A stretch of DNA of 64,000 bases from Mariniflexile fucanivorans (GTDB lineage Bacteria > Bacteroidota > Bacteroidia > Flavobacteriales > Flavobacteriaceae). The DNA lies in the NCBI RefSeq assembly GCF_004341235.1, contig NZ_SLUP01000005.1, positions 248,001 to 312,000 on the forward strand, read 5' to 3'. The first letter of the stretch is position 1. Each line of letters begins with the position of its first letter. Positions 47,331 through 61,797 of the stretch are shown here, piece after piece. The notes beneath the pieces were generated by a model that saw only the letters and a program-made list of their open reading frames with translations, did no database searches and had not been told where the DNA came from. The translations under genes and the position numbers were made by a program.

Positions 47331-47364
47331 TAAATTAGGTATAACAAATTATTATATATTAACT

Positions 47365-47399: not shown

Positions 47400-47460
47400 A
47401 TGGTTTATTGAGTGATAATACCGTGCAAAATTCTCAAACATCAAAATTTCGGAAGCAAAT

Positions 47461-48351
47461 CTAATACGTTACTTCATTTTTAACGTTAGTTGTCTTTACC
47501 ACTTTAAGTTTAGCACTTTGCTTATTAAAAGCAAGTACTGGAATTGTTACCACTGCCTCTAACTCTTTTACTAAATCTTTGTGAAATAGTCCGTTAAAGC
47601 TATTTTTGTTCGTGCGCTCTAGCATTACCAACATATTGGCATTTTCTTTTTTTAGAAAAGCCAATAACCCTGATTTAATTTTACCCGATGCAATGGTTCT
47701 AAAAGTGATTTCTGGATAAGAAACTTGTTTCAAAATAAGGTTTTTGAATATTTCCATACTTTTTTTTATGGAATCTTCATCATTTTCATATACATGTATT
47801 ACTTCAATCAATGCGGAAAATGGCTTAGCAATTTCTACTAGTTTTTTAATGGATAAAATGTCTTCTTGTTCAAAAGCCGTAGCATATACTATGGTTGAAA
47901 GACTATTGCAACCAAAACTATTTGGAACGATTAATATAGGGACTTCAACTCTATCTAATAAAGCGTTAGCAATATTGCCAGAAAAATAGCCTCTTGTACT
48001 TTCAGGGTCTTTCATACCCAAAACAACTAAATCTGGTGACAGTTTTTTAGAAAGCTTAATAATACCATTAGTAATTGAATCATTTTCAACGGCATGAATG
48101 GTAATAGGTTTTTTTCGAAATTCATTTTTAAGATGTGTAGTACAATACTTGGTCACCATATCTTTTTGTTCATCATGTATGCGCTTACTCAAGGTCTCTT
48201 TGGGGTGAATAGTTGAAAGATTAATTGGCGGCATATCATAAACATGTATTACATGTAAATCGGCTTTCATCATAGAACTGAAACGATACGCGTAGCACAA
48301 AGATGATGAGGCATTGGTGCTACAATCTGTTGCATATATAATTGTTTTCAT
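47461..48351 (-). CDS. universal stress protein, tandem Usp domains
   Basis: I start at the Met at 48351 (MKTIIYATDCSTNASS), which begins the first Usp strand; an upstream Met at 48393 would overlap the promoter palindrome region. The 296-residue protein has two Usp domains of about 140 residues. The nucleotide-binding glycine motif is degenerate (GMKDPESTRGYFSGN has Asp where the second Gly is expected), so ATP binding is doubtful. A TGAT-N4-ATCA palindrome lies 51 nt upstream of the start. Confidence 0.9.
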   Translation of the reverse strand: MKTIIYATDCSTNASSSLCYAYRFSSMMKADLHVIHVYDMPPINLSTIHPKETLSKRIHDEQKDMVTKYCTTHLKNEFRKKPITIHAVENDSITNGIIKLSKKLSPDLVVLGMKDPESTRGYFSGNIANALLDRVEVPILIVPNSFGCNSLSTIVYATAFEQEDILSIKKLVEIAKPFSALIEVIHVYENDEDSIKKSMEIFKNLILKQVSYPEITFRTIASGKIKSGLLAFLKKENANMLVMLERTNKNSFNGLFHKDLVKELEAVVTIPVLAFNKQSAKLKVVKTTNVKNEVTY

Positions 48352-48371
48352 AATACCTTTTTTTAGGGACA

Positions 48372-48414
48372 TAAAATTAAGAATATATATCATTTTTAGT
48401 AATGATAAATATCA
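48372..48414 (-). promoter_or_regulatory. CRP/FNR-type operator and -7 element for Usp gene
   Basis: Palindrome TGAT-N4-ATCA at 48403-48414. On the minus strand, 23 nt later comes TAATTTTA (48379-48372). The start codon is 20 nt further. The spacing puts the palindrome centre near -41.5 if the -7 element begins near -12. Confidence 0.75.
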
Positions 48415-48430
48415 TAAAAACAAGATCTAT

Positions 48431-48670
48431 TTATTTAATTTTAAAGTCCTTAGTACTCTTATCTTGATTTCTTACTTTTTTAATTCGAATATTAAGAATA
48501 GCCCCTACAATAAGCCCTATACTGAGTCCTAAAATCCCACCAGCTGTCATACCAACCGAACAATCTACTTTTATAATCATACTAACAATTATTCCTATAA
48601 TACTACCGAGCGGTATGCCTATGGCAATTGCTAATGGTATTTTACTTTGTTGTTTATAAACATCATTCAT
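48431..48670 (-). CDS. 79-aa membrane protein with glycine-rich segments
   Basis: A small protein with two hydrophobic, Gly-rich segments (about residues 11-33 and 38-59) and a basic tail. The glycine-zipper-like spacing suggests tight helix packing. I do not recognise the family. It lies 26 bp after the PNPOx-like gene and is probably co-transcribed from the operator-bearing promoter at 49256-49298. Confidence 0.7.
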   Translation of the reverse strand: MNDVYKQQSKIPLAIAIGIPLGSIIGIIVSMIIKVDCSVGMTAGGILGLSIGLIVGAILNIRIKKVRNQDKSTKDFKIK

Positions 48671-48696
48671 AACCCTTGCTTTTAGTAGAAACTGTT

Positions 48697-49155
48697 CTAA
48701 ATTGGCTTCCTTATTTTTCCAGTTATTTCTTCTATTTTTAAAATGTAAACTATAGGAACCGCTTCAAAATTAACTTTACCCGAAAATTCGTTAATAAAAT
48801 TAAGATCTTTATCTTCTTTTTTAGAGACAAGTTTTTTTACTCCAAGTGAAAACTGATGTAATTGATATTTTGCAGTAGCTCCATCCAATTCATGAAAAGT
48901 TCCTTGTATTAATATAGATTGCCAATTATTAATTGATTGTATTTCGCAAACTTCAAGTGCAATAGCATTATTTAATCGTAATGCTTTTGTTTTGTGTCCT
49001 TCACCAGAATAACCTATAACCGTAATGTTTTTTTGGTCGTAATAATAAGTAATGGGAATTACAAAAGGTGAATTATTATATACGTATGCCAAGTGGCCAA
49101 TGTAATTCTCACTTAGCATTTTTAAACATTCTTTTTTATTTAAATCTCTTATCAT
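48697..49155 (-). CDS. PNPOx-like (pyridoxamine 5'-phosphate oxidase family) flavoprotein
   Basis: A 152-residue split-barrel protein that starts IRDLNKKECLKMLSENYIGHLAYV, typical of the NimA/PNPOx-like group binding FMN or F420. Family members are small oxidoreductases, some tied to nitroimidazole resistance or redox stress. The true substrate is unknown. It sits between stress genes and has its own promoter palindrome 131 nt upstream, so a stress or redox role is likely. Confidence 0.85.
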   Translation of the reverse strand: MIRDLNKKECLKMLSENYIGHLAYVYNNSPFVIPITYYYDQKNITVIGYSGEGHKTKALRLNNAIALEVCEIQSINNWQSILIQGTFHELDGATAKYQLHQFSLGVKKLVSKKEDKDLNFINEFSGKVNFEAVPIVYILKIEEITGKIRKPI

Positions 49156-49469
49156 GGCTTCTAATAAATTTAATTTTTATAAGCACTGCTTCGGTATTTT
49201 TTCGTTTATCTCGATAGTTTTTTAGGGATGCATAAAGATAAACTCCGTTGAAATATGAAGATATTTATTATTTCAACAAAAAACCATGATAAAAATCAGT
49301 TTATAAGTTTAAAACTACAATATTGGTAATTTAAATCTGCAATTTTAATTCTCAAAGCTTAATATTCGGATGTACCGAAAAAGCATCAAAATATTGTTTT
49401 GTTGATTACTTTTTAATTCCTGTAAGTTGGAATGTGTAAGAGTAAAATTTTAAAACTTATTTTATGATG
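49156..49469. other. intergenic region with one operator
   Basis: This 314-bp gap between the PNPOx-like and MscS-like genes holds the operator/-7 pair at 49256-49298. It leaves a ~100-nt leader before the PNPOx-like start. I see no ORF or clear terminator in the rest. Confidence 0.5.
49256..49298 (-). promoter_or_regulatory. CRP/FNR-type operator and -7 element for PNPOx-like gene
   Basis: Palindrome TGAT-N4-ATCA at 49287-49298 and, after 23 nt on the minus strand, TATCTTCA (49263-49256). This -7 match is weaker at its last two bases. Confidence 0.65.
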
Positions 49470-50375
49470 CTAAATTTTATTTTTAACATCAACTTTCAAC
49501 TCAGGTATTTTAATAAGTTCAAAAGTTGTTGATGCCAAAGTAACTTTACCTTTGGTTTTTTCAACTTCCAAAAGAATTTTATCATTTAAAATATGTTTTG
49601 TTAAACGTCTTTTCTTATAGTCAACAATAAATCTTAAATTGAATTGTATCCAGTTATCTGTTAATGTAACGGCAAGTGTTGGGTCCACAACGGCATCTTC
49701 TATGTAATATTTATTTACTATTTCCGTCCATTGCGATTTTGAATTTGCAGTATATTCAGAAAGGGTTTCAGAAGCAATTTTAATGACGATGGATTTCGCC
49801 AATTCTATATCGGAACCATATTTAATGGGTAAATTAAATTCATCCCAAATAAAAGGAAAATCTTGCGAATAGTTGTAAATAGGTCCTTTAAAAACAAACG
49901 CGTTACTCAATTTTACGATGCGACCGCTATAATTATCGCTGCTTACCCACTGGCCAATTTCCATCATGGTGGTGTAGGTGCTATTTACATCTATAACATC
50001 GCCTTTAATACCGTTAATTTCAATACGGTCTCCAGGTTTGTAAACTTTAACTATAAATATAAAAAATGAACCTGCAATACTTAAAATAAGTTCTTGTAAT
50101 GTAAAAGCGATGCCGGCTGAAAACAAACCTATGGCAAGGGTAAAATCTTCAATGCTTCCCGTAAAATACGAAAAAGACAAAACGATTAACACCATATAAC
50201 CTATAATTTCTATGCCTTTTTGAGACTTATATCGGGCATCTGTATCGGTAACATGTTTTCTTAAAAACCGACGTAAAAGTTGAATTAAAATAAGCACAAA
50301 AGCAACTAACAACACATACTTAAAAACACTGTAAAGCGTTGGGTTTTCTATAGTCCATTGTTTTATTGCTTCCAT
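49470..50375 (-). CDS. MscS-family mechanosensitive channel
   Basis: A 301-residue membrane protein with three hydrophobic segments in the first ~110 residues. The MscS beta-domain follows with GDRIEINGIKGDV and the ST-TT-M stretch, then a cytoplasmic alpha/beta part. It should release solutes on hypo-osmotic shock. It is the last gene of an operon with CbpM- and CbpA-like genes, 8 bp from CbpM, an unusual partner for a co-chaperone pair. Confidence 0.88.
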   Translation of the reverse strand: MEAIKQWTIENPTLYSVFKYVLLVAFVLILIQLLRRFLRKHVTDTDARYKSQKGIEIIGYMVLIVLSFSYFTGSIEDFTLAIGLFSAGIAFTLQELILSIAGSFFIFIVKVYKPGDRIEINGIKGDVIDVNSTYTTMMEIGQWVSSDNYSGRIVKLSNAFVFKGPIYNYSQDFPFIWDEFNLPIKYGSDIELAKSIVIKIASETLSEYTANSKSQWTEIVNKYYIEDAVVDPTLAVTLTDNWIQFNLRFIVDYKKRRLTKHILNDKILLEVEKTKGKVTLASTTFELIKIPELKVDVKNKI

Positions 50376-50383
50376 TTTAATGT

Positions 50384-50680
50384 TTATAAATCTTCGTAAA
50401 GTCTTAATCTATTATGCAACATTGTAATTTCTTGTTTTAAGGATTTTACTTGTTTTAGTAAGTTATAAATAGCATCGACACCCTCTAAATTTATCTCCAA
50501 ATCGTAGTGTAAACGTATCATTTTTTCAACCTCTTTTATTTGCTTGGTATGGATATAATAGTCTTCATTTTCAACTATAATTTCTACCAATTGAAATTCT
50601 TGTAACGTGTTTATAAAAGAAACCGGCACGTTATAACGATTGCAAATTAATTGAATGGGTATTAATTTCTGTGTTTCCAT
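50384..50680 (-). CDS. cbpM: CbpM-like chaperone modulator
   Basis: A 98-residue MerR-like helix-turn-helix protein with a C-terminal coiled coil (KQVKSLKQEITMLHNRL). Its size and its place 2 bp after a zinc-finger-less DnaJ fit the CbpA modulator CbpM, which inhibits CbpA's J-domain. The call rests on context and length as much as on sequence. Confidence 0.75.
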   Translation of the reverse strand: METQKLIPIQLICNRYNVPVSFINTLQEFQLVEIIVENEDYYIHTKQIKEVEKMIRLHYDLEINLEGVDAIYNLLKQVKSLKQEITMLHNRLRLYEDL

Positions 50681-50682
50681 TA

Positions 50683-51570
50683 TTAACGTAGTTTTTGAAG
50701 TTCTTCTATTAATGTTTTTTCTTTTTCGGAAAGATTAGTTGGTATTTTTATTTGATAGGTAATGTATAAATCTCCAAACTGATCTTCTTTTTTGTACTTA
50801 GGAAAACCTTTCCCTTTAAGTTTTACTTGAGTTCCGTTTTCTGTTTCTGGTTTTATGTTTAGTTTCACTTTTCCTTTAAACGTATCAACCATAAGTTCGC
50901 CTCCTAACATGGCTTTATACAAATCTAAATCTACAGTAACATAAAGATTGTCTTTGTCTCTTTTGAATTTTGTATTATTTACAACTGAAAACTGAATAAA
51001 TAAATCGCCATTGGGCCCGCCATTAACACCTGCTCCTCCATGGCCTTTAATTTTAATGGTTTGCCCATTTTCAATACCCGCAGGAATGGTTATTCTAATA
51101 TTTTTGTTATTAACTGTTAAGGTTCGTTTGTGTGCTTCGTAAACATCTTTTAGGTCTAGTTGTAATTCGGCATTAAAATCCTGACCTCTAAATTTTACTT
51201 GTCTGCCACCACTACCCGAAGCGCGACCACCAAACATATTTCCGAAAAAATCTGAAAAATCTTCTTCGGAGTATCCTCCTGAAGCTCCTTTATAATTTTG
51301 TTGATAAGCCCCCTGTTGCTGTTTTGCTTTTTCATATGCCTCGGCATTTTGCCAATGCTCACCATATTCATCGTATTTTTTTCTGTTTTCTTTATGGCTT
51401 AAAACTTCGTTAGCTTCGTTAATTTCCTTGAATTTTTTTTCGGAAACTTTATCATTCGGGTTTAAGTCTGGGTGGTATTTACGTGCCAATTTCCGATATG
51501 CTTTTTTTATATCGGACTCTGACGCTGTTTTAGGAATACCTAATATGCTATAATAATCTATATAAGCCAT
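50683..51570 (-). CDS. cbpA: CbpA-like DnaJ co-chaperone
   Basis: A 295-residue J-domain protein: HPD in KYHPDLNP (residues ~33-35), then a Gly/Ser-rich linker, then two C-terminal substrate-binding beta-domains ([16 protein letters not shown] and [16 protein letters not shown]). The CxxCxGxG zinc fingers of DnaJ are absent, which matches CbpA. It stimulates DnaK and binds nucleoid or unfolded protein in stress. A near-match operator lies 73 nt upstream. Confidence 0.88.
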
Positions 51571-51612
51571 TTACTTGTTTTTTTATAGGTTCAAAAAGAA
51601 TGCTTTAATAAC

Positions 51613-51655
51613 TAAAAGTAAGTTTAAAAATACAAATTTTAAATGACAAATATCA
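51613..51655 (-). promoter_or_regulatory. near-match operator and -7 element for the cbpA operon
   Basis: The palindrome is TGAC-N4-ATCA (51644-51655), one base off. On the minus strand TACTTTTA (51620-51613) follows after exactly 23 nt. The conserved spacing makes it likely part of the same set. Confidence 0.55.
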
Positions 51656-51704
51656 GCTGTTTTTAAGCCAAGTTGAATAAAATAACCATTTAACAAATAA
51701 ATAA

Positions 51705-52379
51705 TTAAGCAATAATTTTACCATCTTCCATGGTAATAATTCGATCTGTTTTTTTTGCAAAATCCTCATCATGAGTTACAATTAACAGCGACAAACCTTG
51801 TTCTTTACTAAGCTGTTTAAAAATATTAAATACATTTTCAGAATTATGGCTATCCAAATTTCCCGTAGGCTCATCGCCCATAATTATGGAAGGATTATTA
51901 ATTAAGGCCCTTGCAATGGCAACGCGTTGTTTTTCGCCACCCGAAATACGAGATGCTTTTTTTGTGGCAAGATGTTCGATATTTAAAATTTTAAGTTTTT
52001 GCATCGCGTCATTTTCAATTTCCTGATATGATTTTTCACCAAGTTTTTTCGCCGGAAGCATCACATTTTCTAAAACCGTAAATTCTGAAAGCAAATAATG
52101 AAACTGAAACACAAAGCCAATATGCTTGTTTCTTATATAGGATAATTGATCTCTAGTATTACCAGTTATCAATTCATTATTTAAAAGCAATTCACCTTCA
52201 TAATCGGTATCCATGGTTGATAAAATGTATAGTAGCGTAGATTTTCCACAACCCGATTTCCCCATTATAGACACAAATTCACCCTTATTTATTTTGAAAC
52301 TAATATCCTTTAACACATGAAAAAGCACGGGTTTTTTAAAGTATTTATTAACGTTTTTAGCTTCTAATACAGTGCTCAT
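51705..52379 (-). CDS. ABC transporter ATPase, MacB/LolD type
   Basis: A 224-residue ATPase with Walker A GKSGCGKST, signature ISGGEKQRVAIARAL, Walker B IIMGDEPTG and the LolD/MacB-type QFHYLL stretch after the Q-loop. It powers the FtsX-type permease whose stop is 1 bp upstream. With the MFP gene it forms a three-part ABC export or lipoprotein-release-like system. Confidence 0.93.
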   Translation of the reverse strand: MSTVLEAKNVNKYFKKPVLFHVLKDISFKINKGEFVSIMGKSGCGKSTLLYILSTMDTDYEGELLLNNELITGNTRDQLSYIRNKHIGFVFQFHYLLSEFTVLENVMLPAKKLGEKSYQEIENDAMQKLKILNIEHLATKKASRISGGEKQRVAIARALINNPSIIMGDEPTGNLDSHNSENVFNIFKQLSKEQGLSLLIVTHDEDFAKKTDRIITMEDGKIIA

Positions 52380-52380
52380 G

Positions 52381-53643
52381 TTATTGACCTCTAATAATGG
52401 TTACTGGATCTATTTTTTTAGCTTTTCGAGATGGTAAATAACCAGCAAAAAATGTGGATACCATAGCGAACAATATTCCTATAAAATAAAACCAAGGATT
52501 AAAATTTATAGGATACGTTTTTATTCTTGGTAATGCTTGCGTTTGAAAAGGAATGGTGCTGATTATGTTTGTGAAGATTAGCCCTATTAGCAAGCCTAAA
52601 ACACCACCAATAAAACCAATTATCATGGCTTGACTCATAAAAATAAGCTGTACATCTTTACCTGAAAACCCCGTGGCTTTTAAAATGGCGATATCATTCA
52701 TTTTCTCATAAATAAACATATTTAGAATGTTATAAATGCCAAAACCCGCTACAACAAGCAGTGTAATTGAAACCGCATAAGTTATCAAATTCCTAATATT
52801 GGTGCCTGTTTCAAATTGTGCATTGGCCGTATTAATGTCTACTGCTTTTAGTTTGAATTGCTGTTCAATTTTTTTTGACAAAGGCAATGCGTTCTCAATA
52901 TTATAAAGTTTCACATTAATATCTGTAACATAATTTTCTGCTTCACCAAGAATACGCTGTACAGTTTTTAAATTTGAAAAGCTTTGCATGGCATCAATAT
53001 CCGCAATACCACTTTGGTATAAACCAACAATTTTTAAAGGGAAAACTTCGCCTGTAATGGTACTAATTTGTATGCGGTCTCCAACATCTAAAGCCATTTT
53101 TTCGGCAATACCAATACCTAATAGAATGCCATTTTCAGTATTGAACAAAGCTTCAGGCGAACCTTTAACTATATAATCATTAAGATTGAAAAGTTTAGCT
53201 TCATCCAATATATTAACACCTAGTAAATTACCACCAATTTCAATAGAGCCAGCAATATAAAATATGGTAGCCTTTATCTGCGGAAGCGCCCCACGAACCT
53301 GCTCATTTTCTTCTAAATAATTAATAATTGGTAATGCATTATGGATTTTCTTCTGACTCAATTTGGGCTTTATAGAATGCACCACATTCATGCTATTTTT
53401 AAATTCATCATATAAAGAGATGGGCTGGTTTTTAGAAGGTTCTATTTCATTATAAATATGAATATGTGGCGTTTGATTCAGAATCAAATCGTCTAACATA
53501 GTGTTTAAACCCGTCATAAAACTTACTAAAGTAATATAAGCGCCAATGCCAAAAGTAACCCCTAAAGCAGCAATAGCCGTTTGCTTAATTTTGGTTAGCA
53601 AATGTGTTTTAGCAATGTTTAGTATGACTTTCCAATTAACCAT
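52381..53643 (-). CDS. FtsX/MacB-type ABC permease
   Basis: A 420-residue permease with one N-terminal membrane segment, a ~250-residue periplasmic MacB-PCD-like domain, and three C-terminal segments. NILNMFIYEKMNDIAILKATGFSGKDV is a typical FtsX-domain stretch. The start overlaps the MFP stop by one base (TAATG). Substrate unknown. Confidence 0.92.
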   Translation of the reverse strand: MVNWKVILNIAKTHLLTKIKQTAIAALGVTFGIGAYITLVSFMTGLNTMLDDLILNQTPHIHIYNEIEPSKNQPISLYDEFKNSMNVVHSIKPKLSQKKIHNALPIINYLEENEQVRGALPQIKATIFYIAGSIEIGGNLLGVNILDEAKLFNLNDYIVKGSPEALFNTENGILLGIGIAEKMALDVGDRIQISTITGEVFPLKIVGLYQSGIADIDAMQSFSNLKTVQRILGEAENYVTDINVKLYNIENALPLSKKIEQQFKLKAVDINTANAQFETGTNIRNLITYAVSITLLVVAGFGIYNILNMFIYEKMNDIAILKATGFSGKDVQLIFMSQAMIIGFIGGVLGLLIGLIFTNIISTIPFQTQALPRIKTYPINFNPWFYFIGILFAMVSTFFAGYLPSRKAKKIDPVTIIRGQ

Positions 53644-54722
53644 TATTCAGGTTTATAAATACTAGTGGTTTCGGTAATTCCAGAAATAACCTCTATAAAT
53701 TCCATGTTCTGCAAACCCGTAGTAATGGCTATTATTCCATCGTCTGTTTTCACTTTGTTATCATCAATAATATATTCTTTGGGTATGGTAAGCACCTGTT
53801 CTTTATTCGAAATAACAATATTAGCTTCTCCGGAAAGTCCTGGATAAAGGGTTTTTGGAGCTTCAATAAATAGCGCTTCTACCGTAAAAGTTTGATTGCG
53901 TTCGTCTTTTTTTGGATATATTTTTGAAACTTTTCCTGTGAATACGGTACCATTATATGCATCTAAAATAATGATTACTTTTTGGTCTTTTGAAATTTTT
54001 ACAATATCCACTTCATCAACCAACATTTCGATAACAAATTTAGTAGCGCTACCTATGGAAGCAAGGGGATCCATAGTAGAAACGATTTCTCCGGGCTCTT
54101 TATACAAAGCATAAACTTTACCGTTTATGGTACTTTTTATGGTAAAATCTGTAGTGTTAATTAATGAAGATTGATAGTTGTTTTGTGCTTGTTTTAATGC
54201 TGTTTGTAGTTCGTTTTTGGTTCTATCGTATTTACTTTGTAAAAGTTGCAGGTTATTAGAAGCTAATTGATAATTAAGTTGCTTGGTATCATACTCTACT
54301 TTCGTACCAATATTTTGATTCCAAAGATTTTTTTGTCTGAAATAATTAACAGAATCATTTTTGTATTTCAGGTTTGCTGCAATAATTTCATCTTTAACAC
54401 CTCTTAATACAGCGGCACTACCATTATAATTTTCTTTAGCTAATTCTAAGGATAATTTGGCATTTTGTGTGTTAAGTTTAGGTGTGCTATTGTTAATTTG
54501 CAACAACGCATTACCTTTTGAAACTAAATCGCCTTCTTCAACTAAATTTTTATCTAAAATTCCAGCTACAATAGCATGAACTTGATAAAGACTGTCTGGT
54601 TGAATGGTTATAGAACTATATACAGATTCTGTTAAATCTCGTTTTTCTGGATGTATTTGATCTGTGTTTTTAGAGCAAGATACCATCAATAAAAACAGAC
54701 TTATTAATTGAAATAGTTTCAT
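53643..54722 (-). CDS. MacA-like periplasmic adaptor lipoprotein
   Basis: A 359-residue HlyD/RND-MFP-type protein with a lipoprotein signal (LLMVSC). The biotinyl-lipoyl half-motifs lie at ~65-90 and ~195-225, a coiled-coil hairpin lies between them, and a beta-barrel domain follows (KVSKIYPKKDERNQTFTVEA). It links the permease to an outer-membrane partner not seen here. It lies 50 bp from the TerB-like gene. Confidence 0.9.
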   Translation of the reverse strand: MKLFQLISLFLLMVSCSKNTDQIHPEKRDLTESVYSSITIQPDSLYQVHAIVAGILDKNLVEEGDLVSKGNALLQINNSTPKLNTQNAKLSLELAKENYNGSAAVLRGVKDEIIAANLKYKNDSVNYFRQKNLWNQNIGTKVEYDTKQLNYQLASNNLQLLQSKYDRTKNELQTALKQAQNNYQSSLINTTDFTIKSTINGKVYALYKEPGEIVSTMDPLASIGSATKFVIEMLVDEVDIVKISKDQKVIIILDAYNGTVFTGKVSKIYPKKDERNQTFTVEALFIEAPKTLYPGLSGEANIVISNKEQVLTIPKEYIIDDNKVKTDDGIIAITTGLQNMEFIEVISGITETTSIYKPE

Positions 54723-54772
54723 ATTTAATTTGGGTTTTCTATAATATCATTAAAATCCGTCCTCATAAAAAA

Positions 54773-55159
54773 TTAATTTTTTAATTCGATATCCAACTTT
54801 GCAAGCATAATCAATTCCGATTTATTTAACCCTGAAAAAGAAGTAGCAATGCCATTGGCTGTTTTCATAATAAGCATTTTAACATCCGCAGTAAATAAAG
54901 AAGGATGGTTCTTTTTGAAAGTTAAAAAATCTTCAAAACATGTTTCAGCATCAAGTGCTTTGTTTTTTAACCTATCAAAAACAATTTCTATGTGTTTCGC
55001 GGCATCTTTAGATTCATCATTTTCAGTTAAATCAACATCCAACCATTTTTCCTTTACAAGTCCTTTTAATTTACTTAACTCTGTAGGGTGTACTTTTTTA
55101 TCTGCTGCAGCAATAGCATAAAACAGTTTACCAATATTTTGGTAAAATTCAAGTATCAT
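54773..55159 (-). CDS. TerB-like helical protein
   Basis: A 128-residue helical protein with features of the TerB/DUF-type fold: FYAIAAADKKVHPTELSKLKGLV near the N-terminus and acidic patches suited to metal binding. Such proteins are tied to envelope stress. It is the first gene of the MFP-permease-ATPase unit and divergent from the LOV kinase, sharing its operator. Function unknown. Confidence 0.7.
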   Translation of the reverse strand: MILEFYQNIGKLFYAIAAADKKVHPTELSKLKGLVKEKWLDVDLTENDESKDAAKHIEIVFDRLKNKALDAETCFEDFLTFKKNHPSLFTADVKMLIMKTANGIATSFSGLNKSELIMLAKLDIELKN

Positions 55160-55195
55160 CTTTTTTTAGTTTACGTTTTTTAAAAATTATTTTTC

Positions 55196-55238
55196 CTAAA
55201 ATACGAACAAACTACAGGTTTACCTATGATAAAAATCA
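55196..55238 (-). promoter_or_regulatory. operator and -7 element for TerB-like/ABC unit
   Basis: Palindrome TGAT-N4-ATCA at 55227-55238. On the minus strand TATTTTAG (55203-55196) follows after exactly 23 nt. The same palindrome faces the LOV kinase on the other side. Confidence 0.7.
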
Positions 55239-55279
55239 GTCATTAATAACTAAAAAACGTGCATTTTTCCTTACTTTTA
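55227..55279 (+). promoter_or_regulatory. same operator read toward the LOV kinase
   Basis: From palindrome 55227-55238 the plus strand shows TACTTTTA (55272-55279) after 33 nt, one helical turn more than the 23 nt of the other promoters. The start codon is 28 nt further. A regulator here would control its own kinase. Confidence 0.5.
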
Positions 55280-55307
55280 AAGTGCTATTTTTAAAGGCCT
55301 CACTTTT

Positions 55308-57194
55308 ATGTTCAGACAAGACCAAGAAATATTCAACATCTTACTGGAAACTGTTTCTGAAGGTGTCATTATTGTTGATGACCACCAAAAAATAGTTGAG
55401 GCAAATAGTGCTTTAGAACACATTTTTGGATATAGCAGTAAAAATTTGATAAACAATCAATTAAACCTCCTTATTCCATCTCATTACCACAATAACCTTT
55501 CTGAATATTTCAAAAAATTCCTTGAAAGAGGTAAACGCCGAAAACTGGGTGAAGCCACCGATATTTTTGCTTTAAAAAAAGATGGTGATATGTTTCCTGT
55601 TGAAGTAGAACTAAACCCTTTCTCAATCTATAACAAAACCTATGTGATGGTTTTGGTTAAAGATATTTCAGAAAAAAAAGAGATTGAAAGAAACCTCATG
55701 TTACGCACCAAGGCCTTACAATCTGCCAATAACGGCATCGTGATTACCGATGCTTTAAAATACGATAATCCCATTATGTATTTTAATGCGGCATTTCAAA
55801 AACTTACAGGATATGCTGATTATGAAATACTTAACCGAAATTGCAGGTTTTTACAGGGTATAGACAGAAACCAAGCAGACCTTATAAAACTTAGGGAAGC
55901 TATAAAAAATGGCGAAAGTTGTCAAGCCACTTTGCGTAATTACAAGAAAGATGGCACTATGTTTTGGAACGATATATACGTTTTTCCAATAACAAATATT
56001 GATGGTGTGGTTACCAATTTTATTGGCATACAAAACGATGTAACACTTCGTAAAAAAGTAGAAGACGAACGCCACCACCTAGCTGCTATTTTTGATGAAT
56101 CTTTAAATGAAATCCATGTTTTTGATGCCAAAACATTAAAGTTTATCAATATGAATTTTGGCGCGCAAAAAAGTTTGGGATATACCATGGACGAATTGTT
56201 AAAAATGACACCCATTCATATTACTCCCTACAAAGATGAACTTGAGTTTAGAAAAGTGATTGACGTTTTGCTCGATAAAACGGTTGAAAAATTAGAGATT
56301 GAAACGGTTCAACAGCGAAAAGATGGCACAGAATATCCGGTTGAAGTGCATTTACAGTTGTCTAATTTAGGTGAACGCGAAGTTTTTGTTGCGATTATAT
56401 TAGATATTACCGAACGAAAAAATTACACGGCAAAACTTGAAAAAACAGTTGAAGAGCGCACACAACAACTTAAATTGGCACTTAACAAAGAAAAAGAACT
56501 CAATGATTTGAAAACCAATTTTTTATCATTAGTGTCGCACGAGTTTAAAACACCTTTAAGTGGTATTTTATCATCTAGCGAATTGCTTAGCAGGTACCAA
56601 TTAACAGAACACCAAGAAAAGCGTGATAAGTACATAAAAAACATTACCGATAAAGTCTATTATTTAAATAATATTTTAACCGATTTTCTATCCGTTGAAA
56701 AACTGGAAAAAGGAAAAGCCAGTTATAGTTTTACCCATTTTAAACTTAGCAAAGTTGTTAATGAGGTTGTTTACAATGCCAATATGCTTTTAAAAGATGG
56801 ACAACAAATAAAATACCCAGAAAATGTTGATGAGATATCGCTATACCAAGACGAGAAAATTATTCAGCTCATTTTAACCAACCTATTACACAATGCCATA
56901 AAGTATTCGCCTGAAGGCGCATTTATATATATGTATGTAACTCAAGATGAAAACTTAACAACAGTAATAATTAAAGATAACGGGGTAGGAATCCCCGAAA
57001 AAGACCAAAAGAACATTTTTCAACGCTATTTTAGGGCGCAAAACGTGGTTAACACCCAAGGTACGGGCATTGGTTTAAATATCGTTAAAAGCCATTGCGA
57101 AAACCTAGGTGGCAGCATTTCATTTGAAAGCGAAGAGCACAAAGGCTCAACGTTTACCATCACGATTCCTAACAAAGCAATAAATGAAACTTAA
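55308..57194 (+). CDS. PAS-LOV-PAS sensor histidine kinase (blue-light type)
   Basis: A 628-residue kinase with no membrane segment. PAS1 spans ~8-125, a LOV domain ~133-248, PAS3 ~255-372, then a coiled coil, HisKA with His411 (SHEFKTPL) and HATPase with NAIKYS, DNGVGIPE and GTGIGLNIVK. The LOV domain has the photoactive Cys179 in NCRFLQG. It also has flavin-contact N211 and N221 at the same 32- and 42-residue offsets from Cys as in YtvA, and a GIQND Gln (Q242). LOV domains form a Cys-FMN adduct in blue light; some also sense redox. It precedes the REC-CRP gene by 62 bp, forming a two-component pair. Confidence 0.93.
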   Translation: MFRQDQEIFNILLETVSEGVIIVDDHQKIVEANSALEHIFGYSSKNLINNQLNLLIPSHYHNNLSEYFKKFLERGKRRKLGEATDIFALKKDGDMFPVEVELNPFSIYNKTYVMVLVKDISEKKEIERNLMLRTKALQSANNGIVITDALKYDNPIMYFNAAFQKLTGYADYEILNRNCRFLQGIDRNQADLIKLREAIKNGESCQATLRNYKKDGTMFWNDIYVFPITNIDGVVTNFIGIQNDVTLRKKVEDERHHLAAIFDESLNEIHVFDAKTLKFINMNFGAQKSLGYTMDELLKMTPIHITPYKDELEFRKVIDVLLDKTVEKLEIETVQQRKDGTEYPVEVHLQLSNLGEREVFVAIILDITERKNYTAKLEKTVEERTQQLKLALNKEKELNDLKTNFLSLVSHEFKTPLSGILSSSELLSRYQLTEHQEKRDKYIKNITDKVYYLNNILTDFLSVEKLEKGKASYSFTHFKLSKVVNEVVYNANMLLKDGQQIKYPENVDEISLYQDEKIIQLILTNLLHNAIKYSPEGAFIYMYVTQDENLTTVIIKDNGVGIPEKDQKNIFQRYFRAQNVVNTQGTGIGLNIVKSHCENLGGSISFESEEHKGSTFTITIPNKAINET

Positions 57195-57256
57195 ACAACC
57201 TAAAAAAAGTTACATCACACAACAACTTAAGGATGTTTAAAATAAAAATATAACAG

Positions 57257-58309
57257 ATGAAAACGATTTTACTTATTGAAGACGATGTGGTTTTAAGAGA
57301 TTGCACGGTAGAACTTTTAGAACTATCAAACTATAAGGTTTTAAAAGCTTCAAATGGAAAAATAGGTGTTAAACTAGCCAAACAGTATGTACCAGATATT
57401 ATAGTATGCGATATCATGATGCCCGAATTGGATGGTTATGGCGTACTTAAAGCCCTCTCAAAAGACAAAACCACCAAGTATATTCCCTTTATATTTTTAT
57501 CCGCTAAAACAGAATTTAACGATGTTAGAAAGGGCATGAATTTGGGCGCAGACGATTACATAAGCAAACCTTTCGCCATAAAAGACCTTATAGACGCTAT
57601 AGAAAGCCGTTTAGCCAAAGTCGCCATTTTACAAGAATTGGCCACCAACGAGAACGACTCTAAAGAAGATATGGAGCACGAAATAAAAACCCTTAACGAT
57701 CTAAAAAACTTTTTTGACGATAATGGTACTGTTTTTACATTTAATAAAGATGATGTTATTTACCGTGAAGGCGATCATGCCAATTTTATATACTTAATAA
57801 ACAAAGGCGCGGTTAAATGCCACCAGATACAAGAACAAGGGAAAGAGCTTGTAACCGCCCTATATAAAGAAGACGACTTGTTTGGCTATACTTCATTCAC
57901 AAAAAACATACCCCATCAAGAAACCGTTACAGCGATTGAAGATGTTGAGCTAACAGGCGTTTCTACCATAGAATTTAATAAGATACTCAACAACAACCAT
58001 AAATTAGCATTAGAACTTATGCAGTTATTGTCTGAAGACCTGATAAGTACTAAAAGCCAGTTATTAGAAAAAGCCTATGCTTCAGTAAACAAAAAAACAG
58101 CAGCCACCATTTTAAAATTTGTCGAAAAAATAAACAAGAAACCAGAAGATCCCATAAAAATTTCAAGAACAGATTTGGCAAATGTTGCAGGAATCGCAAC
58201 CGAAACACTTATAAGAGCCCTTGCAGAATTTAAAAAAGATGGCATTATAACAACAGAAGGCAGAAACATAAAAGTAGTAGATATTGAAAAACTAAAAAAC
58301 ATAAATTAG
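57257..58309 (+). CDS. response regulator: receiver + cNMP-binding + CRP/FNR HTH
   Basis: A 350-residue fusion. Receiver ~1-125 with phospho-acceptor D52 (VCDIMMP) and Lys in SKPF. A CRP/FNR sensor-type beta-roll follows (~140-250; no FNR-type N-terminal Cys cluster). The Crp-type HTH lies at ~275-340, with a recognition helix reading ATETLIRALAEF. The Glu and Arg at E-T-L-I-R match the base-contacting Glu and Arg of CRP/FNR. That fits the TGAT half-sites found around it. Phosphorylation by the LOV kinase may replace ligand control. It is the best candidate to bind the palindromes in this region. Confidence 0.93.
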   Translation: MKTILLIEDDVVLRDCTVELLELSNYKVLKASNGKIGVKLAKQYVPDIIVCDIMMPELDGYGVLKALSKDKTTKYIPFIFLSAKTEFNDVRKGMNLGADDYISKPFAIKDLIDAIESRLAKVAILQELATNENDSKEDMEHEIKTLNDLKNFFDDNGTVFTFNKDDVIYREGDHANFIYLINKGAVKCHQIQEQGKELVTALYKEDDLFGYTSFTKNIPHQETVTAIEDVELTGVSTIEFNKILNNNHKLALELMQLLSEDLISTKSQLLEKAYASVNKKTAATILKFVEKINKKPEDPIKISRTDLANVAGIATETLIRALAEFKKDGIITTEGRNIKVVDIEKLKNIN

Positions 58310-58321
58310 TAATGGCCTAAA

Positions 58322-58364
58322 TGATGAATATCATTTCAACTAACACTCATAGTACATAAATTAG
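58322..58364 (+). promoter_or_regulatory. operator and -7 element for Usp gene at 58386
   Basis: Palindrome TGAT-N4-ATCA (58322-58333), 23 nt, then TAAATTAG (58357-58364). It lies 13 bp after the REC-CRP stop and 21 nt before the Usp start. Confidence 0.75.
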
Positions 58365-58385
58365 TAGTTGTAAAATTGTTGTTAG

Positions 58386-59237
58386 ATGAAAAAGATATTA
58401 CTACCCACCGATTTTTCAAAAAACTCATGGAACGCCATTAAGTACGCCATCCATTTCTTTGAAAACGAAACTTGCGACTTTTACATCCTTCATGTACATA
58501 AATTAAGCAATATAGTTGCTATTGATTATTCTTATGCCAATGAAGATGATGTTATTACAGAAGATGTGCATACAAAACCTGCAATGCAACAACTACGCAA
58601 AGTTTTAAGACAGATTAAAACACAATTTCCCGCTAATACAAATCACAGATTTTATCCTTTATACGATTATAACTTCTTTGTAGAATCTATTAGGAAACAT
58701 GTTGAAGAAAAAAAAATAGATATGATAGTTATGGGCACTAAAGGGACTTCTAGATTAAAAAAAATTATTGTGGGCAGCAATACAGGCGATGTTATCACTA
58801 AAGTAAAATGCCCTACGCTAGCCGTTCCAGAAAAAGCGCAATTTGTAAAACCCAAAGACATAGCCTTTCCTACAGATTTCTCTTTAAATTATGATATGCG
58901 CATGCTAGAACCACTATCCAACATATTAGAAAATTACAAACCCGCACTCAGAATACTTAATATAAGCCGAAATAAAACAGATTTGAATATGGAGCAAAAA
59001 AGAAACAGAGCCTTACTAGATGATTATTTTAGCTACATAACCCACAGTTTTCATTATTTAACGAATACAAACATAGAAAAAGCCATACAATTTTTTGTTG
59101 AAAGCAGGCACATACATATGGTATGCATGGTAGCGAAAAACCTAAACTATTTTCATCAAATTTTATTTCATTCAAAAGTTGAAGAAATTAGTTATCACAC
59201 AGAAATTCCTTTTTTAGTACTACACGAAAAAAATTAA
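58386..59237 (+). CDS. universal stress protein, tandem Usp domains
   Basis: A 283-residue cytoplasmic protein of two Usp domains. The first has the nucleotide-binding motif GTKG-x9-GS (MGTKGTSRLKKIIVGSN); the second lacks a clear one. It starts KKILLPTDFSKNSWNAIKYA, the form shared with the Usp genes at 60943 and 61798. Family members aid survival in starvation, hypoxia or redox stress. Its promoter carries the palindrome and it is 6 bp ahead of a small membrane protein gene. Confidence 0.93.
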   Translation: MKKILLPTDFSKNSWNAIKYAIHFFENETCDFYILHVHKLSNIVAIDYSYANEDDVITEDVHTKPAMQQLRKVLRQIKTQFPANTNHRFYPLYDYNFFVESIRKHVEEKKIDMIVMGTKGTSRLKKIIVGSNTGDVITKVKCPTLAVPEKAQFVKPKDIAFPTDFSLNYDMRMLEPLSNILENYKPALRILNISRNKTDLNMEQKRNRALLDDYFSYITHSFHYLTNTNIEKAIQFFVESRHIHMVCMVAKNLNYFHQILFHSKVEEISYHTEIPFLVLHEKN

Positions 59238-59243
59238 AACATT

Positions 59244-59630
59244 ATGGATACTTCAATCTTTTTAGCCAAGTTTTGGGGCTGGTACCTCATCATATTCTTT
59301 TTTATTTTAACATTAAACCCAAAACGCATCAAGCAAATTTTTACAGATTTAAAAGATGAGAAATTTCTAATTATATCATCTTTTGTAGCCATTATTGTTG
59401 GGTTGCTCAATATTTTATTTCATAATATCTGGGAACCAAACTGGAAATTTATAATAACAATTATTGGATGGCTTTCCCTTTTTATTGGGTTATCGCTCTT
59501 TATATTTCCAAAACGGACTGTAAAAACTTTAGAGATTATTAATGTAAAATTGGTACAACTTATTTATATGTTACTGTTTTTGGTTGGTGTGTTTTTGTTG
59601 AATATTGTGTACGGAATTTTACCCATGTAA
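59244..59630 (+). CDS. 128-aa membrane protein, four segments
   Basis: A small protein with four hydrophobic segments (about residues 8-24, 43-60, 69-88 and 103-124) and a cytoplasmic basic stretch. I do not recognise a family. It starts 6 bp after the Usp gene and is surely co-transcribed. Confidence 0.8.
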   Translation: MDTSIFLAKFWGWYLIIFFFILTLNPKRIKQIFTDLKDEKFLIISSFVAIIVGLLNILFHNIWEPNWKFIITIIGWLSLFIGLSLFIFPKRTVKTLEIINVKLVQLIYMLLFLVGVFLLNIVYGILPM

Positions 59631-59641
59631 TTTTTTCAAAC

Positions 59642-59684
59642 TGATATTTATCATTCCATATTAAGATATTATAATATAAATTAG
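59642..59684 (+). promoter_or_regulatory. operator and -7 element driving a gene-free stretch
   Basis: Palindrome TGAT-N4-ATCA (59642-59653), 23 nt, then TAAATTAG (59677-59684), the same -7 octamer as the promoter at 58357. No annotated gene follows before a terminator at 59939. Confidence 0.7.
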
Positions 59685-59810
59685 AGTCATAAACAAAGAA
59701 GTTCTTTTACATGTAATATAAGGTGTTGTTATTAAAAATGTTCAACACTGTTAAAAATGTTTGAAGCTATTTACCATCTTAACATTTAATATGGCTTTTA
59801 AGGGGTATTA

Positions 59811-59909
59811 ATGATTAATGAAAGTTGGTTAATAATGTCGAACATTTTTACAAGGAAACAGGGAGCAAAACTTCCTGTTTCCGTTTACTATTTTCAATAT
59901 GGCTATTAA
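59811..59909 (+). CDS. possible 32-aa ORF inside the candidate RNA
   Basis: Starts MINESWLIMSN and ends QYGY. An AAGGGG stretch lies just upstream of the ATG. The 59854-59882 stem overlaps it, so either the RNA structure or the ORF may be the selected feature. Weak support. Confidence 0.2.
   Translation: MINESWLIMSNIFTRKQGAKLPVSVYYFQYGY
59854..59882 (+). repeat. 9-bp perfect hairpin
   Basis: Arms GGAAACAGG (59854-59862) and CCTGTTTCC (59874-59882) with an 11-nt loop, inside the candidate RNA. No T-run follows directly. Confidence 0.6.
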
Positions 59910-59938
59910 TCAATTCGCATAAAAATATGTGATATGGT

Positions 59939-59970
59939 GGGGAATGTTTTATAAGCATTCCCCTTTTTTA
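59939..59970 (+). terminator. strong rho-independent terminator
   Basis: Arms GGGGAATG (59939-59946) and CATTCCCC (59956-59963), 9-nt loop, then six T. It ends the candidate small RNA and lies 99 bp before the next Usp start. Confidence 0.9.
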
Positions 59971-60007
59971 TTTTAATTAAAAATAAGAAATCTACTAATC
60001 TTCAATC

Positions 60008-60050
60008 TGATAAATATCATTGTTTCAATTTGTTATAGTACTTAACTTTA
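60008..60050 (+). promoter_or_regulatory. operator and -7 element for the three-Usp operon
   Basis: Palindrome TGAT-N4-ATCA (60008-60019), 23 nt, then TAACTTTA (60043-60050), and 18 nt to the start codon. This is the cleanest match of the set. Confidence 0.8.
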
Positions 60051-60068
60051 GTAATAATACTTGAAGCG

Positions 60069-60926
60069 ATGAGAAAAATATTAATTCCTACCGATTTTTC
60101 TGAAAATGCTATGAATGCTATAAAATTTGCTATGGACTTATTTAAATGTGAAGTAAGTGAATTTTACATCATGCATGTATATCAGGACGAGATTTATGCT
60201 GATGAATCTACATTAACCAACACAAAGTTGGATGATTTAAAAGCTATTGTGAGTAAGAAATCTGAGGAAGCATTGGAAAAAACGATAGCAAAAATTAAAG
60301 CCTTCTCTCAAAATCCCAGACACACTTATAATGCCATTTCTGCAAACAACTTACTTACAGAGGAAGCTGATAAAATAGTTGACGACCAAAATATAGACCT
60401 GATCGTAATGGGAACTAAAGGGAAAACCAACGATAAAAAAATAACCTTTGGTAGCCATACGCTTCAAGTTTTAAAATATGTACAATGTCCAGTACTAGCA
60501 ATACCCGAGAATTATAAATACGCAAACCCAACACACGTTCTCTTTCCTACTAATTATATGATACCATACAAAAGAAGAGAGTTAAAATTACTTTGTGAAA
60601 TGGTATCTCCTTTTAGAGTAGAATTAGATATGCTTTATATATCTAAAAGCGAACAACTATCTGTTAGACAACAAGACAATCAAAATTTCATAAAAGAAGA
60701 GTTGTGCAAAAATAAAATCAATTTTAAAATAATAAAAAGTAAACATATTATAAACACCGTTTACACATACATTAAAGAAAACCATGTAGATATGCTGGTT
60801 ATGGTAAACACAAGACATTCATTTTTAGAAAATATTTTATTTCAATCTACCACTATAGATGAATTGAGTTTAAATCTTGACATCCCTTTTTTAACATTGC
60901 AAAACATGAGACGTAACATAATATAA
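60069..60926 (+). CDS. universal stress protein, tandem Usp domains
   Basis: A 285-residue protein with two Usp domains; the first has MGTKGKTNDKKITFGSH, the GTKG-x9-GS nucleotide motif. It starts RKILIPTDFSENAMNAIKFA. First gene of a run of three Usp genes with 16- and 12-bp gaps. It is more divergent from the other members (for example, GSH in place of GSN). Confidence 0.93.
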   Translation: MRKILIPTDFSENAMNAIKFAMDLFKCEVSEFYIMHVYQDEIYADESTLTNTKLDDLKAIVSKKSEEALEKTIAKIKAFSQNPRHTYNAISANNLLTEEADKIVDDQNIDLIVMGTKGKTNDKKITFGSHTLQVLKYVQCPVLAIPENYKYANPTHVLFPTNYMIPYKRRELKLLCEMVSPFRVELDMLYISKSEQLSVRQQDNQNFIKEELCKNKINFKIIKSKHIINTVYTYIKENHVDMLVMVNTRHSFLENILFQSTTIDELSLNLDIPFLTLQNMRRNII

Positions 60927-60942
60927 ATTAAAATTTAATATC

Positions 60943-61785
60943 ATGAAAAATATTCTGCTTCCTACCGATTTTTCTGAAAACTCTTGGAATGCTATAAAGT
61001 ACGCTTTACAGCTTTTCAAAAACGAAACTTGTAAATTCTATTTACTAAACACATACACACCCGTAATTTACCATGTAGAATATGTATTGGTAGAACCAGC
61101 ACAATTTGGCATGATTGATAATGTAAGGGAAATAGCTTTAAAAAATTTAGAAGATTTTAAAACGCGCATAAAAAGCGAATTTAAAAACCCTAAACATACC
61201 ATAGAAACCATAGGCGCCTTTAATATGCTAATTCCAGAAATTGTAGAAATTGTTAAAGATAAAGCCATCGATTATGTGGTAATGGGCACCAAAGGAGCTA
61301 CGGGTACCAACGAAATTTTATTTGGATCGAATACAGTACATGTATTTAAAAACGTTAAATGCCCTGTACTAGCTATTCCAGATGGGTTTGAATTTGAAAC
61401 ACCACATGAAATTTTATTCCCAACAGATTATGCCATAACCTATGAAACACATCATGTAAAACCAATTATAGATATTAACAAGCTCTATCAAACTAGAATT
61501 CACATATTATACCTCACTTATGGTTATGATTTATCTGAAAAACAAGAAGAAAACAAACTAATTCTAGAAACACACTTAAAAAAAGAAACCTATTTAATTC
61601 ATGAAGTGGGCAACCAAACCGTAGAAGAAGGCATCACTAATTTTCAGTCAAAAACACGTGTTAACATGTTGGTTATGATTAATAATAAACACTCGTTTTT
61701 TGAAAATTTATTTTTCAAAAACACCATTAATCAAATCGGTTTTCATTTAAAAATTCCATTTTTAGTTATTCCAGCGAAACTATAA
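60943..61785 (+). CDS. universal stress protein, tandem Usp domains
   Basis: A 280-residue protein, two Usp domains. The first has MGTKGATGTNEILFGSN; the second shows no complete glycine motif. The ending (MINNKHSFFENLFFKNT) closely resembles the corresponding parts of the flanking Usp proteins, so the three arose by tandem duplication. Co-transcribed with both neighbours. Confidence 0.93.
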   Translation: MKNILLPTDFSENSWNAIKYALQLFKNETCKFYLLNTYTPVIYHVEYVLVEPAQFGMIDNVREIALKNLEDFKTRIKSEFKNPKHTIETIGAFNMLIPEIVEIVKDKAIDYVVMGTKGATGTNEILFGSNTVHVFKNVKCPVLAIPDGFEFETPHEILFPTDYAITYETHHVKPIIDINKLYQTRIHILYLTYGYDLSEKQEENKLILETHLKKETYLIHEVGNQTVEEGITNFQSKTRVNMLVMINNKHSFFENLFFKNTINQIGFHLKIPFLVIPAKL

Positions 61786-61797
61786 AAACCACAAATC

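Follow-up and report, generated by a model that had tools for sequence, protein, structure and literature searches.

A 64-kb stretch of the Mariniflexile fucanivorans genome, hereafter the window, carries a group of stress genes at 48-60 kb whose intergenic spaces contain copies of the palindrome TGAT-N4-ATCA. This arrangement raises the question of whether these palindromes are the operators of a single regulon and, if so, which protein reads them and in response to which signal. We consider the sites to be probable class II activator promoters of one regulon run by a sensor kinase (55308-57194) and its neighbor (57257-58309), a receiver fused to a CRP/FNR protein (receiver-CRP), and we assign this reading a probability of about 0.78.

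The palindrome and the 23-nt rule

A strict P-23 site is defined here as TGATN4ATCA separated by exactly 23 nt from a downstream TAnnTT, and a relaxed one as TGA[TC]N4[AG]TCA with T[AG]nnTT. Exact TGATN4ATCA occurs 10 times in the window, while dinucleotide shuffles had a mean of 1.72 and none of 100 reached 10; if one mismatch is allowed, the palindrome is barely enriched (55 vs. 42.2 expected, with 3 of 100 shuffles equally high). As an earlier note on this DNA had described, six of the palindromes (48403, 49287, 55227, 58322, 59642, and 60008) are intergenic and lie at 48-60 kb along with a near match at 51644 (TGACAAATATCA), and all six are P-23 on one strand. The other four (18050, 22773, 25802, and 43617) are intragenic, and none has TAnnTT at 23 nt. 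The same note had considered the palindrome to be confined to the 48-60 kb region, which is correct for the boxed intergenic form within the window but not for the genome, since P-23 sites are also found elsewhere (see below). TAnnTT stands exactly 23 nt past the palindrome at 48403, 49287, 51644, and 55227 on the minus strand and at 58322, 59642, and 60008 on the plus strand, while the eighth promoter, which reads from 55227 on the plus strand toward the kinase gene, has CATTTT in its place; the proposed count of seven boxes among eight promoters is therefore accurate. The promoters are as follows.

48372..48414, minus strand: P-23 promoter of the universal stress protein (Usp) gene 47461-48393, palindrome + 23 nt + TAATTTTA
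49256..49298, minus strand: P-23 promoter of the PNPOx-like gene 48697-49155, TATCTTCA
51613..51655, minus strand: P-23 promoter with one mismatch, of CbpA-CbpM-MscS, TGATATTTGTCA, TACTTTTA
55196..55238, minus strand: P-23 promoter of the TerB-like and HlyD-ABC genes, TATTTTAG
55227..55269, plus strand: imperfect eighth promoter, toward the kinase gene, CATTTTTC
58322..58364, plus strand: P-23 promoter of the Usp gene 58386-59237, TAAATTAG
59642..59684, plus strand: P-23 promoter of a small RNA, TAAATTAG
60008..60050, plus strand: P-23 promoter of the Usp-like gene 60069-60926 and later genes, TAACTTTA

At a chance rate of 9.4 per 608 oriented palindromes, taken from the 59 other spacings in the relatives described next, the probability that six of six intergenic sites carry the box is ~9e-10, and that of at least six among the 10 exact palindromes is 1.6e-7. 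The window sites had been chosen by the author of the earlier note, so relatives provide the better test. A total of 531 relatives of the 57257-58309 protein were confirmed, and we took the best 80 together with as much as 10 kb of flank per side (1.60 Mb in total), all titled as flavobacteria except for one "Bacteroidia bacterium". These loci share kinship, so their palindrome counts are not independent events; they contain 304 palindromes, of which 238 have TAnnTT at 23 nt on at least one strand. At spacing 23 there are 244 occurrences of TAnnTT, as compared to a mean of 9.4 (standard deviation 4.8) at the 59 other spacings, which places the pattern far above chance frequency. The rule is obeyed by 237 of 267 intergenic palindromes vs. 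1 of 37 genic ones, and at least one P-23 site is present in 60 of the 80 loci. The region is A+T-rich (window GC content 0.34) and TAnnTT is common, such that the spacing might be viewed as a by-product of A+T-rich intergenic DNA and a chance cluster of palindromes. However, the other spacings in these same loci yield only ~9 each and the genic palindromes lack the box; the relatives refute this explanation, which we regard as having almost no chance of being correct. The palindrome plus 23-nt grammar at 48-60 kb is thus confirmed, and sequence statistics establish its conservation as well.

For proteins of the CRP/FNR type, an operator centered at -41.5 is the established position for class II activation. 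A profile built from 243 sites (the remaining one of the 244 being too close to the end of its locus) reads a-a-[CA]-TGAT-[AT]2-A-T-ATCA-T-T-[TG] ... TAnnTT-T-[AG], and its box resembles that of the Flavobacterium psychrophilum promoter map, in which the main text places the sigma-A box TAnnTTTG at -12 to -5 (PMC9723704). Because the spacing to such a box is fixed at 23 nt, the palindrome center falls at approximately -41.5 relative to the predicted transcription start, which supports the class II geometry that had been proposed. Downstream of the palindrome, T is found in 95% of the sites at -35 and 75% at -34, followed by T57/G30 at -33, and the mirrored upstream position at -48 is C58/A33, so the pattern is asymmetric. 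The downstream half-site therefore seems to be merged with a degenerate, weakened -33 element. This refines the suggestion that the palindrome takes over the role of the usual -33 TTTG, which is not a simple replacement.

The genes served by these promoters, together with their neighbors, are listed below.

47461..48393, minus strand: universal stress protein, by family scan
48697..49155, minus strand: PNPOx-like protein (Pyridox_ox_2), by family scan
49470..51570, minus strand: DnaJ/CbpA-family chaperone, CbpM-like protein, and MscS-like channel
51705..55159, minus strand: ABC ATPase, permease, HlyD-type protein, and TerB-like protein
55308..57194, plus strand: sensor kinase with FixL/DosP-like PAS, LOV, third PAS, HisKA, and HATPase_c
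57257..58309, plus strand: receiver-CRP/FNR response regulator that would activate the P-23 promoters
58386..59237, plus strand: Usp gene, by Pfam
59244..59630, plus strand: 128-aa protein, no family match
59689..59889, plus strand: small RNA, model match at 59722-59885
within 58386..62622, plus strand: three Usp-like genes after the small RNA, by reading

The CbpA-family and CbpM-like proteins both score under the NCBIfam cut-offs, the ABC ATPase and permease were labeled from reading, and the MscS-like and TerB-like labels are those of the earlier note, the TerB-like protein having no Pfam or NCBIfam match. The predicted start for the first Usp promoter is 48367, and therefore the likely start codon of gene 47461-48393, read from the sequence, is the ATG at 48351.

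A receiver-CRP as the putative reader of the operator

The CRP-type regulator that had been noticed in the middle of the locus is, more precisely, a two-component response regulator in which a receiver is fused to a CRP/FNR protein. Its receiver, cNMP_binding, and HTH_Crp_2 domains are all above the Pfam cut-offs (PF00072 at 94.5 bits, PF00027, and PF13545), with the cNMP-binding fold and HTH_Crp marking it as a member of the CRP/FNR superfamily. In a response regulator, the receiver is expected to have a phospho-acceptor Asp and an acidic pocket, and IEDD, CDIMMPE, and SKPF were recognized by eye in this one. None among the 25 NCBIfam matches listed for it reached its cut-off. When compared with solved structures, its C-terminal part gives its best matches to FNR proteins (E 2.5e-15 to 6e-15), and its recognition helix, ATETLIRAL, aligns with TVETISRLL of FNR, keeping the Glu and Arg while Ser is replaced by Ile. 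E[TS][LF][IV]R was found in 78 of 79 regulators, the last being unmatched by the search expression. FNR proper has a set of cysteines for a 4Fe-4S cluster. The 350-aa regulator has only three in all, two of which are within the receiver, so an FNR-type cluster is unlikely and we rejected Fe-S sensing of this kind. Since it has a receiver domain, its input is probably the adjacent kinase 55308-57194; a kinase of this type is present in 78 of the 80 relatives' loci and a UspA1-type gene in 77. The FNR/ANR box is TTGAT-N4-ATCAA, used at class II positions. The present system resembles FNR/ANR in its TGAT-N4-ATCA core, -41.5 geometry, FNR-like DNA-binding helix, and Usp and pyruvate:ferredoxin oxidoreductase-type targets, but differs in the flanks of the site (C/A-TGAT...ATCA-T) and in having three cysteines, no FNR-type Fe-S set, and a receiver instead.

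The genome itself has five HTH_Crp_2 matches, namely the window protein, a receiver-CRP on contig 7, an adjoining 225-aa protein (CRP2), and two others, one of which is stop-interrupted. At E 1e-30, receiver-CRP was found in 19 of 148 genomes of the order. For the family, we counted the oriented motif MTGATNWWTATCATT in 199 genomes with the reversed pattern as control, and sought receiver-CRP and CRP2 at E 1e-40. The 86 genomes with receiver-CRP contained 398 sites vs. 96 control matches, while the 113 without it contained 228 vs. 163. When the genomes were divided four ways, receiver-CRP alone (37 genomes) was accompanied by 136 sites vs. 22 control matches, both proteins (49 genomes) by 262 vs. 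74, CRP2 alone (70 genomes) by 159 vs. 124, and neither (43 genomes) by 69 vs. 39. The genomes with only receiver-CRP differed from those with only CRP2 at p 2.5e-6, a value that overstates independence because the genomes are related, and in a regression of the oriented-palindrome excess t was 5.8 for receiver-CRP and 0.3 for CRP2. These counts pool the stress-type receiver-CRPs with those encoded beside cbb3 oxidase genes (cbb3-type). The excess of palindromes thus tracks receiver-CRP, not CRP2.

This comparison bears directly upon the idea that CRP2 or another CRP/FNR paralogue binds the P-23 sites as part of a FixL-FixK-like cascade, while receiver-CRP acts elsewhere. CRP2 does have the appearance of such a protein: it resembles Fnr (92.9 bits, under the cut-off of 228), its recognition helix keeps E..IR in the 10 copies seen, and its gene is two genes past the contig 7 receiver-CRP. 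The four-way comparison (159/124 vs. 136/22) nevertheless led us to reject CRP2 as the main binder, and P-23 is absent from 10 of 10 cbb3-type loci. We therefore consider a cascade of this sort to be quite improbable.

For the receiver-CRP regulon, co-occurrence supports activation by the bound protein, and we infer the following sequence of events. The kinase would switch the neighboring receiver-CRP by phosphorylation, and the dimer of this regulator would bind TGAT-N4-ATCA at -41.5 beside the sigma-A-type -7 box TAnnTTTR and recruit RNA polymerase to the Usp, CbpA, PNPOx-like, TerB/ABC, and Hsp20 genes. Other targets of the same regulator would be a structured small RNA and, in other parts of the genome, certain genes of low-oxygen metabolism. 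Promoters in Bacteroidota are unlike those of model bacteria. In our judgment a regulator, its operator, and a position rule can rarely be read together; this locus yields all three, tied by co-occurrence over 199 genomes.

Apart from the kinship and pooling mentioned above, several observations weigh against the proposed regulon. Of the 31 genomes in which the sites exceed the control by five or more, six had no receiver-CRP match at the threshold used. Within the genome itself, P-23 was found at only 7 of 20 intergenic palindromes (first stretches, covering the first 50 of 151 palindromes), and the promoter of the window kinase is itself imperfect (CATTTT). Among the long loci, P-23 is present in 24 of 25 with LOV and in 26 of 35 without LOV outside the cbb3 type, yet in none of the 10 cbb3-type loci, which carry the paralogous regulator. 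There, a relaxed palindrome stands 9 nt before a -7-like box in eight of eight places where it was found, which suggests that the operator may be used differently.

The six excess genomes without a receiver-CRP match (G155, G193, G207, G266, G002, and G320) may have another regulator or may be incomplete.

Ten places before a cbb3-type kinase were examined with the relaxed pattern, nine in relatives (L059 being left out) and one in the genome itself, where the palindrome precedes the paralogous kinase on contig 7 (L140:11436-11447); seven relatives have it likewise, while L043 and L060 have no such palindrome (2 of 10 places). The center of this operator is at approximately -27.5, and the bound protein should therefore block transcription, which suggests feedback autorepression at the cbb3-type kinase promoter. 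If the repressing position at these kinase genes were representative, receiver-CRP would repress or merely modulate the P-23 promoters as well. However, the exact 23-nt spacing and -41.5 center of 237 intergenic sites match class II activation and the -33 element is degenerate, so we judge a repressor or modulator to be very improbable.

The signal: a possible change from haem to LOV in a FixL-like kinase

The sensor kinase belongs by its sequence to a FixL-like family, with a LOV domain in the branch of the window. Its first PAS matches DosP (E 4e-13) and FixL (8e-10), and its third PAS, HisKA, and HATPase_c are downstream of the LOV. LOV domains are marked by a GxNCRFLQ-type motif and flavin-contacting N, N, and Q residues. 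The LOV of the window kinase (55692-56066 searched) matches a LOV protein of known structure at a best E of 4e-31 and carries NCRFLQG, FWND, and GIQND with the N, N, and Q positions, although it scores under the full-length NCBIfam cut-offs. FixL binds its haem with a proximal His and an Arg; the window kinase has Leu and Thr at these positions. The second copy of the system on contig 7 is arranged as cbb3 oxidase genes, a 414-aa kinase, receiver-CRP, Usp, and CRP2 (the cbb3 oxidase and Usp labels being from reading the sequences), and the PAS of its kinase matches FixL (2cmn) at E 6e-18, its His and Arg both falling on the corresponding FixL residues. The system would share ancestry with a FixL-like haem-PAS kinase. 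Stress-type and cbb3-type copies of the kinase and receiver-CRP also occur together in Confluentibacter lentus (L046 and L060), as they do in the genome of the window.

We aligned 79 kinases, the window copy and 78 from relatives. Both haem residues are retained in 48 of the 50 LOV-free kinases that could be read at these positions; L033 and L009, which were not fully readable there, were excluded. The kinases with a Cys-LOV keep the His in 22 of 24 readable cases and the Arg in only 5 of 25; the window kinase and L005 both have Leu in place of the haem His. In raw counts, the Arg is kept in 48 of 50 kinases without LOV vs. 7 of 27 with it (Fisher 1e-10). On the regulator tree, which omits L062 and L080 (called as 297-aa open reading frames) and has two rows without a kinase label, LOV changes at least 5 times on the starred branches or 8 times on the best tree. 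Well supported branches provide only four independent pairs for LOV and Arg loss, with 1.8 changing the same way and 0.2 the opposite way (median p 0.5); significance is out of reach because there are only four pairs, so the link between LOV and absence of the haem Arg is suggestive only.

In two Flagellimonas kinases (L075 and L076), the adduct-forming Cys of the LOV-like domain is replaced by Leu, and the first PAS retains both haem residues.

As judged from its residues, the window kinase probably does not sense oxygen through haem any longer. With the haem ligands absent and LOV present, blue light or flavin redox would be the most likely present input, and this is our best guess. An oxygen sensor with a vestigial or tuning LOV would agree with the haem residues kept by 48 of 50 LOV-free relatives, with the His kept by 22 of 24 Cys-LOV kinases, and with the low-oxygen genes among the regulon targets. 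However, the window kinase itself has lost both residues, Leu standing for His and Thr for Arg, and its LOV retains NCRFLQG at E 4e-31, which makes continued oxygen sensing unlikely, though less so than the alternatives weighed above. We tentatively propose, at somewhat less than even odds, that in this branch of marine flavobacteria the haem site of a FixL-like kinase was lost and a LOV domain acquired, such that blue light or flavin redox now runs, through the receiver-CRP fusion, a class II regulon, including the small RNA, that oxygen runs in relatives. If so, one output module would be under an oxygen sensor and a light sensor in close relatives, offering a direct test of natural sensor replacement.

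Among known systems, rhizobial FixL-FixJ/FixK is similar in having a FixL-type PAS kinase and a CRP/FNR protein downstream, and the paralogue beside the cbb3 genes has both haem residues. It differs in that here the receiver and CRP/FNR are one protein, so the response regulator would itself bind the FNR-like box, and in that the window kinase has LOV and not the haem residues; a hFixL-FxkR-FixK variant also exists (PMC7888657). YF1, the engineered YtvA LOV-FixL kinase (described in PMC6798134; PDB 4gcz), also has a LOV on a FixL-type kinase, and the window LOV matches 4gcz at E 4e-29. Unlike YF1, the window kinase is natural, retains a FixL-type PAS before the LOV and a third PAS after it, and has receiver-CRP, not FixJ, as its neighboring regulator; if our proposal is true, it would be the natural counterpart of YF1. 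In F. psychrophilum, oxygen limitation induces the cbb3 oxidase, and the main text that reports this has no occurrence of the words Fnr, TGAT, palindrom, or universal stress (PMC9723704). A literature search of limited coverage yielded no receiver-CRP regulon of this kind, natural flavobacterial FixL-type LOV kinase, or RNA such as that described below, which is weak evidence of novelty.

Predicted regulon targets and a structured small RNA

The stress genes named as targets in the earlier note recur downstream of P-23 in relatives, as Usp, PNPOx-like, CbpA, and TerB-like clusters. Gene calls in the loci were made with a simple longest-open-reading-frame script, and target names rest on clusters and a few family scans. 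Pooling the relatives with the window and the own-genome stretches examined first gave 259 strict sites, 241 of them with a downstream gene call (45 clusters) and 18 without. Usp accounts for 108 sites, TerB-like proteins for 27, Hsp20 for 17, WG-repeat proteins for 13, PNPOx-like proteins for 12, CbpA for 7, the kinase itself for 6, and an S30AE ribosome-hibernation-type protein for 5, among others. Counted by locus, P-23 precedes PNPOx-like genes in 11 and TerB-like genes in 27 (the window counted in both), and among the relatives' loci a strict P-23 precedes CbpA in 7 and a full P-23 precedes the kinase in 6. Single-case targets in relatives, which may be due to chance since ~9 of the 244 sites are expected by chance, include a radical SAM protein (which we take to be HemN-like by its start), ribonucleotide reductase, acetyl-CoA hydrolase/transferase, pyruvate phosphate dikinase, and thioredoxin. 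In the genome itself, a P-23 site precedes pyruvate:ferredoxin oxidoreductase (NCBIfam TIGR02176, above cut-off), and family scans identified AhpC-type peroxiredoxin, Usp, Hsp20, an outer membrane efflux protein, and an alginate-export-type protein as other targets. A mixture of stress and low-oxygen genes is reminiscent of FNR/ANR-type regulons.

The whole genome has 151 palindromes vs. 91 for the reversed control. Of the first 50, eight follow the rule on at least one strand, with 1 of 30 among the genic ones. Ten further stretches, partly picked by the oriented motif, added 12 palindromes outside the window, three of which obey the rule: one before an Hsp20 gene, one before a TonB-type gene, and one at the very start of a 588-aa open reading frame. 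P-23 sites are thus spread across the genome, yet most of the palindromes examined there are not P-23.

After the site at 59642, the next 380 nt are gene-free, and the candidate RNA that had been placed here is both conserved and structured. It consists of a 5' GTTCTTT segment, a long-range stem, and a terminator hairpin (GAAACAGGGAG...CTTCCTGTTTC), and folds at -49.9 kcal/mol with a z of -4.5. Downstream of the 128-aa gene, relatives often have a P-23 site and then 1-3 units of ~170-180 nt that end in a terminator hairpin (GAAACAGGAAG...CTTCCTGTTTC-T). An alignment of 24 units (25 less the near-duplicate L049) has 28 pairs, which are formed in 93.9% of cells. Compensatory changes on both sides occur at 20 of these pairs, while slid alignments reached at most 54.6% and 11 pairs and none of 500 shuffles reached any of five measures. 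With a covariance model, 19 of 85 sources (the window and 18 relatives' loci) yielded 35 units on the plus strand at E <=2e-6. A further 22 minus-strand matches, weaker (E 5e-6 to 9e-3) and overlapping the same places, appear to be the hairpin matched in mirror image. Of the 35 units, 23 were in the model and 12 are new (three in L017, two each in L044 and L049, and one each in L015, L038, L046, L061, and L067); the model unit of L040 was not recovered. In each of the 19 loci, a P-23 site (strict in 15, relaxed in 4) lies no more than 200 nt before the first unit; 16 of these loci had been gathered by their P-23 site, leaving L017, L038, and L044 as a free test with a result of 3/3. Of 22 loci with P-23 after the 128-aa gene and a space of >250 nt, six (L002, L003, L028, L036, L040, and L051) gave no model match at E 0.01, even though the model included a stretch of L040; some sites in this position are therefore not followed by the small RNA.

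Among 60 genomes, a set that may overlap the species of the 80 loci (the score of G194 is identical to that of L038), the model matched 8 at E 1e-3, all with receiver-CRP (8/25 vs. 0/35 without it, Fisher 4e-4), although the weakest two, G181 and G182, are doubtful. Besides the genome of the window, five of the eight (G153, G174, G177, G179, and G194) encode the RNA and receiver-CRP no more than 2 kb apart, and a relaxed P-23 lies 33-45 nt before the RNA. Rfam gave no match over the gathering score in 47000-61000 and only two sub-threshold matches, neither of which is at the RNA. The RNA, being conserved, covarying, terminated, and often tandem, would thus constitute a new family without an Rfam match, and it appears to be part of the same regulon. 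FnrS of E. coli is an FNR-activated small RNA. Compared by description only, both are small RNAs with a terminator after a CRP/FNR-type promoter, but the window RNA is ~200 nt, often occurs as 2-3 tandem units, and has a long-range covarying stem.

GTTCTT is close to the 5' end of the RNA in 14 of 19 loci. As a seed for start regions it was rejected, its complement AAAGAAC occurring 11 times in 1497 starts vs. a mean of 10.1 and a maximum of 25 for shuffled words. AAAGAACG occurs 3 times in start regions (shuffled mean 0.6, maximum 3), from which we claim no target.

Three neighboring genes also recur. The 128-aa protein at 59244-59630, without a family match, has relatives in 34 of the 80 loci; gene 62691-63533, with ATP-cone and Mrr-type domains, has relatives in 32, and the metallo-beta-lactamase-like gene that comes next has relatives in 31.

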